The position numbers were made by a program, and so were the translations under genes. The notes beneath the pieces are model-generated. The model ran no database searches. It was not told the DNA's origin and saw only the letters and a list, made by a program, of their open reading frames with translations. From IMG/VR virus record IMGVR_UViG_3300023223_001973, positions 1 to 64,000 of that record: a stretch of DNA of 64,000 nucleotides. The stretch is one strand, 5' to 3'. The DNA comes from a virus. This document shows positions 1,240-51,809 of this stretch, piece by piece (positions within the stretch are counted from its first letter, which is position 1; each line of letters starts with the position of its first letter).

Positions 1240-1992
1240 ATGACGTATACACAGCGGGACCTCGATAAGCTTATGTCTAAGCGTCGGGGTCGGGCAATCG
1301 TCAAGTGTCGTGCTGTCCGCAAGATTGCGGGTGGCCAGCCTGCCGGTGACAAGGCTCTTGCAGCCTTCGTCAAGTATCACCTCGACCTGGATCCGGAAAG
1401 CAACGAAGGTAAGTCCGCTATCGCTCGGATCAAGAACGAGGAGATTGGGGAGAGGGATACCGGTACTCCCGAAGGCGAGCTGGACAACAAGGAAGTGTAT
1501 CAGGTCAACGTCATTCGACGGAATATGAATGGTCCCTTCCTCCTGGAACACCAGATCAAGGCCATGCTGAAGCAGTCTGCCAGCCGCCTTGGCTACTTTG
1601 TCAAGAAGCGTGGCTCCAAGGGTGACATGGCTGAGCTGGGCACAGTCCGCGCTCATGGAACCAGTCTTCAGTTTGCTCTCCGTCCTTGGGAAATTCACTT
1701 GCGCAAGAACGGGCAAAGTGCTCCCACCTCATACGACCAGATCACCGGTTGTGTGAGCACCACTCAGGGCAAGAAGTCCATCATGCACCATACCGAAGTG
1801 GCGGATGAGGGCTCCGAGTTTGCCTTCGAGTTCGACTGGATTCCTGACAAGCTGGGCAAGAATGCCATGCTGGAGATCATTGCTGCTGCCACGCAGATCG
1901 GCATTGGTTCCTGTCAGAGCTTGGGCTACGGGAAGTTCGAGGTCGTGGAGCTGGATATTGACATGCCTGTTAAGGTTAAGAAGGAGGCATAA
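1240..1992 (+). CDS. RAMP/Cas7-like RNA-binding protein (putative)
   Basis: A 250-residue protein. Residues about 221-234 (GIGSCQSLGYGKFE) match the glycine-rich loop near the C-terminus of RAMP-fold CRISPR proteins (Cas5/Cas6/Cas7), typically G-h-G-S-x-x-S-x-G-x-G-x-F. The segment before it alternates strand and helix as in a ferredoxin-like RRM fold, and a GPFLLEHQIKAML stretch in the middle is reminiscent of the Cas7 helix after the first strand. No cas genes or standard CRISPR repeats are near. The gene is followed directly by a 5-nt periodic non-coding array whose first anchor overlaps its last codons, which suggests the array RNA or DNA is its ligand. The motif is seen; the fold and function are inferred. 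A different RRM-like nucleic-acid-binding protein is the main alternative. Confidence 0.55.
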   Translation: MTYTQRDLDKLMSKRRGRAIVKCRAVRKIAGGQPAGDKALAAFVKYHLDLDPESNEGKSAIARIKNEEIGERDTGTPEGELDNKEVYQVNVIRRNMNGPFLLEHQIKAMLKQSASRLGYFVKKRGSKGDMAELGTVRAHGTSLQFALRPWEIHLRKNGQSAPTSYDQITGCVSTTQGKKSIMHHTEVADEGSEFAFEFDWIPDKLGKNAMLEIIAAATQIGIGSCQSLGYGKFEVVELDIDMPVKVKKEA

Positions 1993-2630
1993 CTCGACCT
2001 TACGAAGCACAGCGGCCATGCATCATTCCACCGCGCGAGACGAAGCGGCATTGCGTCACAAGACTTGACATATCATGACGAAGAGGCAAAGCAACATGAT
2101 GCATGGCGTAACTAAGCGGCATGACAGGATGTAACTTAACCCAACGTAGAGGCTTAACCAGTCCAAGCTGGTCGGTACTGAACTAAGCGGCTATACAATG
2201 CACGTCTTTACGAAGCGGCGGGACCAGATAAGTCGTGACACTACCCGACGGAGTGGCAGAGCCTTACTCGACATTACTTTACGGAGTGGCAATGCAAGGC
2301 TGAGCAGTGCCGAGCGGCAGGACATAGCTCTACGCTACCACACGCAGAGGCACTACTGAATCATGCCTGACATTGCTTAACAAAGCGGCAGGACGCTACT
2401 CCACACGACGAAGTGGCATGACGCGACTCCACAGGACATGGCGGCTCGACAAGACCGAGCACTATAAGGCTGAACTGGACGAAACAGAGTGGCCAAGCCT
2501 GATGAATCTGTGCGACACAAAGCGAAGTGGCAAGACGGGATGGTACGCCACCTAACTGAACGCAGCGGCAAGTCAAAACAGGACGATACATTGCTGAGAG
2601 GCGAGACAAAACGGGACATTACGCCGCGGC
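1986..2630 (+). repeat. Non-coding array of 20 degenerate GGC anchors with strict 5-nt periodicity
   Basis: Twenty anchors with consensus ACGAAGYGGCA occur in direct orientation. The distances between successive GGCs are 28, 33, 38, 33, 33, 38, 28, 38, 33, 28, 33, 38, 28, 28, 48, 38, 38, 33 and 28, all equal to 3 modulo 5. Starting at each GGC, the sequence divides into 5-9 pentamers of form N-R-C-N-N (most often N-A-C-N-N), and a trinucleotide (AGN in 17 of 19 cases) precedes the next GGC. By my count 109 of 117 pentamers have C at position 3 and the other 8 have T, and none has C at position 2. The region has no convincing ORF. It begins in the last codons of the RAMP-like gene and ends at promoter Pb. 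Transcript, protein-binding DNA or origin are all possible. Confidence 0.85.
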
Positions 2631-2635
2631 ATAGC

Positions 2636-2660
2636 TGAACCTAAAGACCTCCTCTACGTA
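2636..2660 (+). promoter_or_regulatory. ECF-type promoter Pb (TGAAC-N16-CGTA)
   Basis: TGAAC at 2636-2640, a 16-nt spacer, CGTA at 2657-2660, just past the last array unit and 21 bp before the ATG at 2681. Same architecture as the other phage promoters here. It separates the array from the downstream small genes. Confidence 0.75.
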
Positions 2661-3037: not shown

Positions 3038-3263
3038 TGACCTTCCAACTCTGGCCCTTCCTCAGTGGGAACTGGAGATGCTTGAATTTCAGAAGAAGCT
3101 GAAAAAGGAAATGGATGCTTATTTCCGCTCTAAAATGATAGTTCCTGCTAAATACTTTGGAGGCCCTTATGAAAGTAGTCGATCTGTTAGAACTGATCAA
3201 GGACGTGGACCTGGAGGCAGAGGTCCCGAGCGAGATCATCGACAAACTGACCCAGGTACCTGA
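3021..3263 (+). CDS. Small hypothetical protein overlapping both neighbours
   Basis: An 80-residue ORF starting at ATG 3021 (or 3024), inside the end of the previous gene. Residues about 5-55 look like a genuine helical protein ([21 protein letters not shown]). The C-terminal 30 residues are Gly/Arg-rich and overlap the start of the next gene in another frame, so the protein may be real over its first two-thirds only. No family recognised and the start is uncertain. Confidence 0.45.
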
Positions 3264-3672
3264 TGGCTCACCGCCTCGCCCTGTCCGTGGTAAGCTTCCC
3301 AACCGTCGCAATGGAATAACCCAGAAGGTATCTGTTGCTCAGCAGACAGTCTATCTCCGATCTGGACTGTATGAAGATGGTTCTCTGGGTGAGATATTCA
3401 TTGACATGTCCAGACAGGGTGCTGGTTATCGTTCCATTATGGGCTGCTTTGCTATCGCGGTAAGTCTTGGTTTGCAGCATGGTGTACCGCTTGAACGCTT
3501 TGTTAATGCTTTTGTATGGACAAGATTCGATCCGCAAGGCCAAGTTGCTGGCCATCCTTCTATAAAACACTGTACGTCAGTGGTGGACTATATCTTTAGA
3601 GACTTGGCTTATCACCATCTTGGTGATGAGGATATGGCTAAGTATGATCCTAAGGAGCACTCTTACCTATAA
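3169..3672 (+). CDS. Stand-alone RNR C-terminal (TSCPD/NrdJ-tail-like) domain protein
   Basis: A 167-residue protein; ATG 3169 is chosen because GGAGG lies 5 nt upstream. The central part ([19 protein letters not shown], then the [15 protein letters not shown] and [11 protein letters not shown] regions, then [16 protein letters not shown]) closely follows the C-terminal region of B12-dependent class II ribonucleotide reductases (NrdJ). There it is a domain fused to the catalytic barrel. The catalytic part is absent from this window. It could be a piece of a split reductase, a regulator of the host enzyme, or the free TSCPD-type domain family. Its neighbour is a Cys-rich protein. Confidence 0.75.
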
Positions 3673-4720: not shown

Positions 4721-5070
4721 GGGGGTGAATTGGATTCGACTGGCTGTATGAGCTATCGTGCTGCGTGTCGTGGTTGGTCGGTTGGCCACGTTAAAAGCCG
4801 TCCAAAAGCTTATCTGCGGAATATACCGCACGTCTGCGCTTGGTCTCCGGACCACGTGCCGTCGCTGCCTGAGCGATGTACCCAAGAAGGCACTTCGTCA
4901 AGGTGTCCCGCTGAAGACGGTTTTAGTTGGTGGGAGGACAGGTGGGGAAAGACCCACTGCCGAACCTGCGTCACGAGGGCCGGGCAATAAACGGAAACAG
5001 TGACTATGCATGTAGACGCCGGTAGTTTGGCAGTTCCAGCACGTGGGTTCGACTCCCACCACCTCCACCA
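4721..5070 (+). ncRNA. ssrA: Phage-encoded tmRNA (one-piece)
   Basis: Transfer-messenger RNA rescues stalled ribosomes by adding a degradation tag. The 5' end GGGGGTG (4721-4727) pairs with CACCTCC (5060-5066), including the G·U at pair 3 that marks alanine acceptors. The 5' segment GGATTCGAC matches bacterial tmRNAs, the T arm is at 5043-5059 (GTGGG, TTCGACT, CCCAC), and the 3' ACCA is encoded. Near the 3' part, GACTATGCATGTAGACGCC resembles the E. coli segment before the T arm. A tag ORF starts most plausibly at GCA 4828 and runs to TGA 4870-4872, giving ARLRLVSGPRAVAA, whose AVAA end fits known proteolysis tags. The resume codon is inferred from the ATATACC sequence before GCA and could differ. 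Confidence 0.93.
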
Positions 5071-5175: not shown

Positions 5176-5250
5176 TGACCTGTAGCTCAATGGTAGAGCG
5201 CCTGGCTGTTAACCAGGAAGTTGGAGGTTCGAGCCCTCCCGGGTCAGCCA
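5176..5250 (+). tRNA. tRNA-Asn (GTT)
   Basis: Complete cloverleaf: acceptor TGACCTG (5176-5182) pairs with CGGGTCA (5240-5246), D arm GCTC/GAGC, anticodon stem CCTGG/CCAGG with anticodon GTT in the loop CTGTTAA, T loop TTCGAGC, and an encoded GCCA end. It lies 105 bp after the tmRNA and is probably on the same transcript. It is the only tRNA I find in the window. Confidence 0.95.
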
Positions 5251-48683: not shown

Positions 48684-50285
48684 ATGTTTCTTAATGAACG
48701 GTTCCTGGTCAAGTCTGAACTTCTTGAGATGGAGACCAAGAACCTCCCTCAGGGTGTGCTTCTTCGTGTTACTTACCCCGTATGCAACATTGGGGAGAGG
48801 AACCACAACAACCGGATCTATGAGGTACAACTGTGGGAGCAAGTCCTGGCAGAGAAGGATCTAAAGGAGAAGCTTGCTGCTCGCACGCTCTTCGGTCATG
48901 CTGAGCACCCGGAAACCACAGCATCCAATGTGGAGAAGGTCTCCCATGTCATTACCAAGATGTGGCTGGATGAGGAGATTGGAAAGCTGAAGCAGACCTT
49001 CGAGGTCCTGGACACTCCTTATGGTCGTATTGTAGCCACTCTTCTGAATGCTAACTGTGGCCTGGGTTGCTCGACTCGTGCAGAGGGTGACCTGGAGGAG
49101 AAGGAAGACGACAAGGGCAAGTACCATCGCGTTATCCCTGAATCCTACCGCTATATTACTACAGACTTTACCGCTGATCCTTCTACGATTGGTGTATATC
49201 CCGAGAGTATTGAGAACCATCTGGTTAGTCAGGTTAAGGCTGGTATGGAAGCCAAGAAGATGGATCCAGCCTTTGCGTGTGCTCTGCTGGAGGGGATGAA
49301 GAGTAAGGATGCCAAGGTCCTCCTTGAGTCTATCAAGGAAATGCATGGTGGTGATGCACATTCTAAGCCTGCCTCAGACATGGAATCTCCACCTATGCCA
49401 CCGGCAACCAATCCTGAAGCAGCTCTGGAAGCCATGTATACCTGTCCCAAGTGTGGCAAGGAAGCCATGTATGAGATCACCTCTGAGAAGATCAACTGCG
49501 AGTGTGGCTCCTTCATGAAGAAGAACGAGCAGTATGAGTCTCGCTTGGTCTTCGAGGACTTTGATGCTGCAGTGGCCTGGTTTACTGAGGCATTTGCCAA
49601 GATTGCTGATGAGGAGCTTCAGGATAAGGTCAGGCAGGTTAAGGGTGCTCTGACTGAGAGCAGACCCTCTGCCATTTCCAAGCAGATGCGGTCACTTCGT
49701 GGTCAACTTGCTGAGTCTAAGGCTGAACTCTCGGTCTTGGGTGAGATTGATGAGGAACGAGCCTCTGGTCTGATTGCTGCCATAAAGCAGGTTGCGGAAT
49801 TAGAGGCACTCATGGCTACTGTGGAGTCCAAGTCCCATGAAGATAAGGAAGCTTTCGGAAGGAAGCTCATGAAGTCTCTTAAGGCTTCCATGAAGGAGAG
49901 ACTTGCCACTGAAGCTACAAGCAGGCAGAAGTTAGAGGCTAAGTATAGTACAGTTTCTTCTGAGACTGGAACCTTAAGGGCAAAGATTGAGGAGCTTCAG
50001 GGGCAGGTAGCCACGCAGGCCAAAGCCCATAATCAGGAGCTTATCAAGAAGTACGCTCAGGTTACCGTGGAGAAGACAGGACTGAAGCTTTCGAAGCAGT
50101 TTCAAGCACTTCTTGAAAAGGCATCCTCGGAAACTGAAGTCGATAACATGCTTGATCGAGTCAGGGATGAAATAACTGAAGGGATGATACATTCTGCGAT
50201 CCCTGCCCTGAAGGTTAAGCCTGATGCCTCGGAACCAAAGGATGTGATCTCGGAAAGTATTCACAGTGCTATGGAAGGTATGTAA
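48684..50285 (+). CDS. Prohead protease fused to scaffold
   Basis: 533 residues. N-terminal 150 residues fit the gp21/S21-type serine protease of prohead maturation: GERNHNNRIYE, LFGHAEHPE (His72 catalytic candidate) and CGLGCSTRAEG (Ser130). A Cys4 zinc ribbon (TCPKCGKE and CECGSF) lies near residues 253-275. Residues 330-480 are coiled coil, as expected for a scaffold. In T4 these are two proteins (gp21 and gp22). T4-type proteases cut after [L/I]-x-E, a motif found repeatedly in the genes downstream. Confidence 0.8.
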   Translation: MFLNERFLVKSELLEMETKNLPQGVLLRVTYPVCNIGERNHNNRIYEVQLWEQVLAEKDLKEKLAARTLFGHAEHPETTASNVEKVSHVITKMWLDEEIGKLKQTFEVLDTPYGRIVATLLNANCGLGCSTRAEGDLEEKEDDKGKYHRVIPESYRYITTDFTADPSTIGVYPESIENHLVSQVKAGMEAKKMDPAFACALLEGMKSKDAKVLLESIKEMHGGDAHSKPASDMESPPMPPATNPEAALEAMYTCPKCGKEAMYEITSEKINCECGSFMKKNEQYESRLVFEDFDAAVAWFTEAFAKIADEELQDKVRQVKGALTESRPSAISKQMRSLRGQLAESKAELSVLGEIDEERASGLIAAIKQVAELEALMATVESKSHEDKEAFGRKLMKSLKASMKERLATEATSRQKLEAKYSTVSSETGTLRAKIEELQGQVATQAKAHNQELIKKYAQVTVEKTGLKLSKQFQALLEKASSETEVDNMLDRVRDEITEGMIHSAIPALKVKPDASEPKDVISESIHSAMEGM

Positions 50286-50318
50286 ACTTTAACTTCACTC
50301 TCTAAGGAGACGGGTACC

Positions 50319-51809
50319 ATGAAGAATAATAACGAAGCTATTGCGGCAGCAGTACAGAGTCGCATGGATGAGATGACGAACCGTCGTTCAGCTCTGGTTA
50401 ATAGCTGGGCCAAGTACGTCAACGCCGTGGATACCTACGTCAAGGAGAAGCGGGGTAACTCCCTGTCGGACTGGGAGAAGATGAACATCGCCCAGTGTCT
50501 CGAAAACGCTCTTATTGAGGGTGGGCTTCGCCAGAATGCCCTGTTCGAGACGACCTTCGCCGACAACATCACCTTCCTGGGCATTCAGCTGCCCGTGATT
50601 GCTGCCTTGCTGCCGTCTCTCGTGCTGAACGAGATCGGCATGGTGCAGGCTCTGGATCGCCGGCAGGGTGCGGTGTTCTATCTGGACCTGCAGTATGGTA
50701 CCACGAAGGGTAACGTGGCCTCCGGAACGGACATGATCAACGCCCAGACGGGCCATGATCGGACCACGCAGGGTCGGAGGTTTGCTACGAACCGAATCAA
50801 TCAAGAAGCCCTCGGCACTGGTGACGGATCGACGGCCACCTTCGCCGGGACTCTGGACTTCAAGCCCGTGAGAGTAGATGGTGACGTCACAGTGCTTCCT
50901 GATGGCGCCATTTCGATCACTGATGGTCTTGAGACCTTCACGGACTCCACGGGGAGTGGGACGCTCACTGGCGACCTTGGTGGCACGGGTACCATCACAT
51001 ACGCCACAGGCGTGTTCAGCGTCACCTTTAACACCGCTCCTGTGTTGGCTGCCGTTGTCTCCGCGTCCTACCGCTTCAACATGGATCGGGATACGACCGG
51101 GATCGGTGAGGTCAACGTCTCGATGCGGTCCGAGAATATTACCGCTGAGGACTTCAAGCTGCGGGCAAACTTCTCCCTGGGTGCAGCCATTGACCTGGAG
51201 AAGGCACATGGGCTGAAGTTGGAGTCCGAGCTGGTCAAGTTCCTGGGTGGAGAGATCAAGTTCGAGATTGACCACTTGGGTATCGACGTGATCAGGGAAG
51301 CTGCGGAAGGGGCCAATGCAGCCACGGCGGTGGGTACCTGGACCGCTACCCCGACCGATGGACAGGAATGGCTCTGGAAGAAGTACGAGTTCAACGACCA
51401 GATCGAAAAGGGCTCGAACTTCATCTTCGCCAAGACGTTGCGCGGGATGGCGACCTTCATCCTATGCGGAAACAACGTGGCGCGGGTATGCAAGCAGCTG
51501 ACCCCGCACTTCAAGGCAGCCCCGGGTCTGGACAAGCAGAAGCCCACGGGCCCGATGGTTATCGGCACACTCGACGGCCGCACCGTGGTTCAGGACCCCT
51601 TCCTCCCGATCAACCGGTACTACCTGGGATTCAAGGGTGACAGTTACCTGTTCTCCGGCTTCATATATGCCCCATACATTCCGCTGTTCGCAACCCCCAC
51701 CCTGGTAACCGCTGACACCCTTGCCCAGAAGGGCTTCTTCAGTGCTGCCGGCTTCAAGATGATTAATGAAGGTCTGTACAACTTCGGCGATATCGCAGGC
51801 CTGCTCTAA
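50319..51809 (+). CDS. Major capsid protein (gp23-like)
   Basis: 496 residues, AAGGAG site. HK97-fold signs: N-terminal helical arm, FLGIQLPVIAALLPSLVLNEIGMVQ, long strand region with an Ig-like or E-loop insert rich in Gly/Thr/Val (residues 165-250), then NFIFAKTLRGMATFILCGNNVARV and a C-terminal GFFSAAGFKMINEG segment. Codons are noticeably GC-ended compared with neighbours, fitting the most abundant virion protein. N-terminal processing by the protease is expected. Followed by a strong terminator. Confidence 0.88.
   Translation: MKNNNEAIAAAVQSRMDEMTNRRSALVNSWAKYVNAVDTYVKEKRGNSLSDWEKMNIAQCLENALIEGGLRQNALFETTFADNITFLGIQLPVIAALLPSLVLNEIGMVQALDRRQGAVFYLDLQYGTTKGNVASGTDMINAQTGHDRTTQGRRFATNRINQEALGTGDGSTATFAGTLDFKPVRVDGDVTVLPDGAISITDGLETFTDSTGSGTLTGDLGGTGTITYATGVFSVTFNTAPVLAAVVSASYRFNMDRDTTGIGEVNVSMRSENITAEDFKLRANFSLGAAIDLEKAHGLKLESELVKFLGGEIKFEIDHLGIDVIREAAEGANAATAVGTWTATPTDGQEWLWKKYEFNDQIEKGSNFIFAKTLRGMATFILCGNNVARVCKQLTPHFKAAPGLDKQKPTGPMVIGTLDGRTVVQDPFLPINRYYLGFKGDSYLFSGFIYAPYIPLFATPTLVTADTLAQKGFFSAAGFKMINEGLYNFGDIAGLL

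Follow-up and report, generated by a model that had tools for sequence, protein, structure and literature searches.

A viral RAMP gene joined to a punctuated pentamer array: a probable RNA-guided DNA-binding system of the VIPR kind with a GAY/NN letter code

What does a long array of degenerate pentamers do when it runs straight on from a RAMP-like gene in a viral genome, and is such a pair a new RNA-protein system? The locus that raises these questions lies in a 64,000-nucleotide stretch of DNA (hereafter the window), which represents bases 1-64000 of a viral record totalling 99,693 bases. An initial annotation of the window had described a RAMP/Cas7-like protein that might present array RNA as guides in 5-nt steps, with two constrained bases and a 3-nt block for pairing in each, and had suggested a possible new system. 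The kind of system is in fact already published: VIPR, reported in April 2026 (bioRxiv 2026.04.26.720920; PMC13142463), consists of a phage RAMP and tandem-pentamer guide RNAs and was presented as a guide code that is noncontiguous and predates CRISPR. Experiments on SUSP1, an Escherichia phage with a type II VIPR (Vipr plus vrRNA, PDB 36pp), showed that the NN dinucleotides of the guides pair with dsDNA while one target base is skipped per step, and VIPR binds dsDNA on either strand, both in vitro and in vivo (PMC13142463). The proposal that pentamer steps serve as guide RNA presented by a RAMP thus agrees with what is experimentally established for SUSP1. As detailed below, the window locus is very probably a compact phage RNA-guided DNA-binding system of this kind.

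The gene in question (1240-1992, + strand; here called vipr-like) encodes a protein of 250 aa. As a single sequence, this protein has no significant match in Pfam, PHROGs, or the PDB, and the only pointers are weak ones to the Cas6 C-terminal region (E 0.15) and to Cas7 III-D and Csm4 (E 0.005-0.007). An AlphaFold2 model built from seven aligned relatives, with the row for Microcystis phage Mae-JY09 left out, has a mean pLDDT of 78.6 and a pTM of 0.73. Foldseek places only Cas7-type proteins among the best 50 PDB matches of this model; they come from type III, type VII, or gRAMP complexes (best E 6e-7), with Csm3/Csm5/Cmr in the lead, and the fold library is older than the SUSP1 Vipr structure 36pp, such that the ranking covers earlier structures only. 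VIA-align likewise gave Z up to 11.9 over 163 residues. By predicted fold, the protein is a Cas7-type RAMP, which bears out its original description. Alignment and fold together place its glycine-rich loop (residues 221-234, GIGSCQSLGYGKFE) as the predicted RAMP G-loop, in which G221, G223, G231, and F233 are invariant among 8 aligned family sequences.

A ribosome-binding site (1227-1232, +) lies just 3' of a 9-bp hairpin (1205-1226, +, z -3.3), which may serve as a leader or processing element. A second hairpin immediately 5' of a start codon is present at 896-955 (z -2.9), and the two are possibly processing or regulatory elements of the vipr-containing operon. Among the six nearest window proteins, none was cas-like except, weakly, the RAMP itself; its neighbourhood showed no CRISPR array, Cas10, Cas6, or adaptation genes, and no vap-like accessory gene was recognised next to it. 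At gathering thresholds, Rfam detected only a tmRNA and a tRNA near the locus and no hammerhead. The virus carries the tmRNA gene at 4721-5070 (tag AEYTARLRLVSGPRAVAA) and the tRNA-Asn gene at 5176-5250. There is also a short TSCPD-domain protein (3157-3672) resembling the C-terminal part of the ribonucleotide reductase large subunit.

The array itself extends over 1981-2640 (+), overlapping the last codons and the stop codon of the vipr-like gene, from which it runs on without a gap. It appears to be a guide-RNA array of the vrRNA type and comprises 100 pentamers of the form NN-(g)-A/G-Y arranged in about 20 units, each closed by the 8-mer NNAGNGGC. The first unit (1989-2016, +), which consists of ATAAC TCGAC CTTAC GAAGC followed by ACAGCGGC, holds the vipr stop codon, and 18 further complete units (2017-2630, +) start at 2017, 2050, 2088, 2121, 2154, 2192, 2220, 2258, 2291, 2319, 2352, 2390, 2418, 2446, 2494, 2532, 2570, and 2603. 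The 19 units counted have lengths of 24, 28, 33, 38, and 48 nt, equivalent to 8 + 5n with n = 4, 5, 6, and 8, the 24-nt length being that of the first unit as clipped at the stop codon by the counting procedure. The longest unit (2446-2493, +) has 8 pentamers plus the 8-mer in 48 nt and a predicted gapped target of TCnAAnCGnACnAAnTGnTGnGAnAG. At position 5 the window pentamers (n=97) have 89 C and 8 T, and at position 4 they have 67 A, 23 G, and 7 T, while G4, G6, G7, and C8 of the 8-mer tail each occur in 19/19 units. The AT-ending pentamers (8/97, within 1993-2630) mostly occupy the second place in a unit, a pattern absent from the pooled arrays described below. A dynamic-programming parser for the pentamer plus 8-mer grammar scored 1981-2640 at 363 bits with no gap, as compared with 13.0 bits (+) and 11.7 bits (-) in the remainder of the window and 12-16 bits in shuffles. 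The gene, the loop, and the array are all confirmed at the places first given for them. Just 3' of the array, a search for terminators found none; a weak hairpin there (2649-2674, +, z -2.1) is not a convincing terminator because it has no U run.

Is the coupling of gene and array a property of this virus or of a family? The window protein alone had no match as a query in the viral_contigs and phages collections, and its relatives were reached through array DNA patterns and protein profiles. A protein-blind pattern of the array DNA matched 26 stretches in viral_contigs, three of which are real arrays (on the contigs G001, G002, and G003); the other stretches look like chance matches. A homologue adjoins the array in all three (E 4.5e-46, 6.1e-46, and 7.2e-13, respectively), and profile searches yielded four more homologues (G004-G007), all of them with arrays. 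These seven viral relatives stand at 24-42% identity. Gene and array lie on the same strand and follow the same grammar in 8/8 loci, the window included, with the array upstream of the gene in some relatives and downstream in others. The arrays contain 6-37 short units and each is punctuated by 8-mers; that of G007 is degenerate and that of G006 runs off the contig end. As no homologue was seen without an array, the direct coupling proposed at the outset has been upheld. Furthermore, a comparison of ORFs within 6 kb found the vipr gene and its array to be the sole feature common to the eight loci, and we therefore regard the pair as a conserved module on otherwise unrelated viruses. A small homologous ORF occurs in four loci only (G002:68069-68416(-), G004:5769-6068(+), G005:18360-18638(-), and G007:567-899(+)) and is absent from the window's virus; it lies just upstream of the array in G004, G005, and G007, whereas the G002 copy sits inside the array and carries a zinc ribbon. 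Its product is a candidate accessory protein. Outside of viral_contigs, a profile of four relatives (A1) found no relative in genome_contigs, in which the array pattern gave three isolated chance matches lacking array or homologue, and the plasmids and annotated phages held no close relative, apart from the distant Mae-JY09.

With the arrays in hand, the letter code can be read directly. Among the pooled pentamers (n=629, seven arrays), positions 1 and 2 have entropies of 1.99 and 2.00 bits, position 3 is G in 44%, position 4 is A or G in 94% (A80/G14), and position 5 is Y in 99%. The pentamer code is GAY/NN in the register NN-(G44%)-(A80/G14)-(Y99%). The earlier view that each step has two constrained bases needs correcting, as position 3 is weakly biased and full freedom is confined to positions 1 and 2. 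The pooled register reads as the YNNGG register of VIPR with A replacing the second G. An unsupervised pentamer model recovered T-NN-G-G from SUSP1 as well as the window's own pattern, and after the Mae-JY09 homologue it found C-NN-S-C with a score of 56, where shuffles scored 4-18 and coding controls 5-9. When NN composition was compared with codon phases, positions 1-2 gave the best fit, a result confounded by flat composition.

If the free dinucleotides are read out as in VIPR, some guides should have recognisable targets. The scan against the eight contigs took in all units with four or more pentamers and applied several skip rules, with E-values that assume equal base frequencies. Two matches emerged, both from one relative, G002. 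With a 1-nt skip, unit 25 of G002, the final unit ahead of the gene, agrees with the vipr gene of G002 itself at 18/18 bases (E 1.3e-5 in 885 kb and 3.2e-6 in its own contig). This match ends exactly at the unit borders. It runs over the codons of a peptide conserved in the family, MVQACIKQA, and at every step the skipped base is the third of its codon. The other is a solo guide of 11 GAY/NN pentamers with the tail GGAGCAGC (G002:48947-49052), which together with a strong terminator hairpin spans L071:8947-9092 (= G002:48947-49092). It matches the adjacent ORF (49103-51022; 639 aa, PHROG 13692, function unknown) at 21/24 bases, again with a 1-nt skip and in wobble phase (E 4.4e-5). For skip rules other than 1 nt, the best E was about 0.009 once self-matches of the arrays were set aside. 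Shuffled guides reached E-values down to 7e-4 against their own contigs, and against the vipr genes alone 1/30 shuffled sets fell below 5e-5, the real best being 1.9e-7. The window's own guides gave no match better than E 0.03 in the eight contigs, and neither an exact match for the longest window guide (2446-2493) nor targets for the long guides of G005 and G001 were found in viral_contigs. Most units would pair just 10-14 bases, versus the 18-32 implied by the 9-16 repeats of SUSP1.

These matches bear upon both what is read and where. The first proposal, a RAMP filament presenting contiguous 3-nt blocks (N1N2N3) with two bases held per 5-nt step, draws upon the three positions that look free when the window array is taken alone, and it implies the same geometry of 3 target bases per 5 RNA bases. 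However, the G bias at position 3 of the pooled arrays speaks against it, as do the two G002 matches, where positions 1-2 agree at 39/42 bases and position 3 agrees at 5/19, which is chance (2/8 for unit 25 and 3/11 for the solo guide, the latter counted by eye). The best E under a three-base rule was 0.009, in comparison to 3.2e-6 under the two-base rule. We consider 3-nt blocks very unlikely and favor paired dinucleotides with one target base skipped. As for the target molecule, a type III-like system in which the array RNA guides the RAMP to RNA would suit the nearest folds, which are those of the type III Cas7 proteins Csm3/Csm5/Cmr, and unit 25 of G002 is indeed complementary to vipr mRNA. 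The solo guide, on the other hand, has the same sense as its target mRNA and cannot pair with it; its partner must therefore be DNA (or an antisense transcript). This agrees with VIPR, for which binding to either strand of dsDNA is established both in vitro and in vivo (PMC13142463). With one G002 guide antisense and one sense to its gene, the sequences point to DNA as the target, and RNA targeting seems improbable.

It is also conceivable that the array does not guide anything. An RNA coated by the RAMP but pairing with no target, whether as a decoy, an anti-CRISPR, or a structural RNA, would be compatible with the irregular unit lengths and with the lack of known targets for the window guides. 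Nevertheless, NN at maximum entropy over 629 pentamers is expected of guides rather than of structure, folding of the array RNA is not clearly stronger than that of shuffles (z -1.15, with no stable fold found), and G002 supplies two wobble-phased target matches, which leaves this role highly improbable. Alternatively, the array could act as DNA, in the form of iterons, an operator array, or a packaging or replication site, or it could be a decayed coding repeat. In favor of this view, the short periodic DNA adjoins a nucleic-acid-binding protein, and a search for a sigma-70 promoter-like site ahead of the array gave none. Yet array and gene share a strand in 8/8 loci, the solo copy of G002 ends in a strong terminator hairpin with its T run on the array strand, and target matches exist in G002; in addition, the unit lengths of 8+5n exclude a reading frame through the array. 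We attach the least weight to these possibilities, which are extremely unlikely.

Taking the array as a set of DNA-directed guides, a mechanism can be proposed. The array would be transcribed with or next to vipr, and short RNAs cut or transcribed from it would be bound by the 250-aa RAMP. Each guide would consist of the n pentamers of a unit and bases 1-2 of the 8-mer that follows, as suggested by the G002 match that ends at unit borders, while the 8-mer NNAGNGGC may form an invariant 3' tail and keep neighbouring guides apart. Vipr subunits, arranged as a filament, would hold the (g)-A/G-Y of each pentamer and present the free NN to DNA, skipping one target base per step. Every 5 bases of RNA would then cover 3 bases of target, and the target read by n pentamers would measure about 3(n+1) bases. 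Within genes, the skipped base would fall on the third codon position, consistent with both G002 matches. From VIPR and these two matches, binding of the RNP would be expected to block transcription and repress the bound gene. By analogy with the VIPRs of SUSP1 and Pseudomonas fulva, the targets may be genes of competing or related phages, and the system may be used against such rivals or relatives and possibly also to limit its own vipr expression. Judged from the sequences, the agreement of one guide with vipr and of another with a neighbouring gene would fit either attack on relatives or self-regulation.

How does the locus compare with known systems? The window RAMP shares its fold and C-terminal G-loop with the type III Cas7 proteins (Csm3/Csm5, Cmr4) at 11-15% identity. 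Those proteins form RNA filaments with a fixed footprint, with a 6-nt step in place of the 5-nt step of the window array, and the RNA of type III CRISPR is spacer-like, whereas most RNA bases of the window array are constrained. No CRISPR array of direct repeats and spacers is present at the locus, the sole array being pentamers with 8-mer tails. Closer in layout is Microcystis phage Mae-JY09, which has a homologous protein (28.9% identity to that of G003, E 9e-7) followed by a pentamer array with positions 2-3 free (L048:5691-6150), although its consensus is C-NN-S-C and it lacks the AGNGGC tails of the window. Lying directly after a distant RAMP homologue, this array reads as a third letter code in the same register. 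The independent GAY clade and this third consensus suggest that the NN read-out and the 1-nt skip persist when the held bases are exchanged for others; the code would then be separable from its scaffold.

The closest resemblance is to VIPR of SUSP1, whose Vipr is a RAMP with one RRM-type core, a G-loop, and a thumb (PMC13142463). Homologues of the SUSP1 type, annotated as hypothetical (L056-L060), also occur in Pseudomonas phage Medea1, Mycobacterium phage LittleE, Gordonia phages Trine and Pipp, and phiHSIC. A Vipr 99% identical to those of E. coli Felixounavirus-type phages is found at GU169904.1 91700-92026, in a record named Staphylococcus phage SA1 that is probably mislabelled or mixed. 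Both the window and SUSP1 have a single phage RAMP with a G-loop beside non-coding tandem-pentamer arrays, a hypervariable NN with three constrained bases in the register Y-NN-x-x, and a 3' tail (putative in the window), and the window's family further shares, as seen in G002, the 1-nt skip, the skip base at the codon wobble position, and guides matching vipr genes. By sequence, the relationship is marginal. Profile A1 ranked SUSP1 Vipr first in the PDB at E 0.072, larger profiles with added relatives shifted the top match to Csm3 (E 0.35-1), and hhalign against Vipr gave E 0.001, or 1.7e-4 with a wider profile (probability 21-49%), the latter alignment being collinear over the second half with the G-loops aligned. 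Architecture, register, skip rule, and fold make a strong case for membership in VIPR, and sequence a weak one.

Several features differ from SUSP1. The consensus is GAY/NN rather than GGY/NN, the protein has 250 aa rather than 195 aa, and the guides have mostly 4-9 pentamers rather than 9-16. SUSP1 has separate guides of ~100 nt with a structured tail, whereas the family has arrays of 6-37 guides with the 8-nt NNAGNGGC between them. This presumed tail has only a small fraction of the length of its SUSP1 counterpart and lacks the structure seen there. Unlike VIPR, the window locus also has no recognised vap gene. Tentatively, and with slightly less than even confidence, we propose a separate VIPR type, so far confined to uncultivated viral contigs, with a GAY/NN code, many short punctuated guides per array (up to about 37), and a perfect guide against its own vipr that makes it an autoregulatory loop as well as a weapon. 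The preprint describes seven types, some with 'a related consensus' and 'staggered arrays with overlapping vrRNAs' (PMC13142463), and the window clade may therefore be one of these seven. In either case, arrays of 20-37 short guides with 8-nt tails represent a compact natural multiplex guide format, and it is in its letter code and array punctuation that the window clade differs from the published VIPR.
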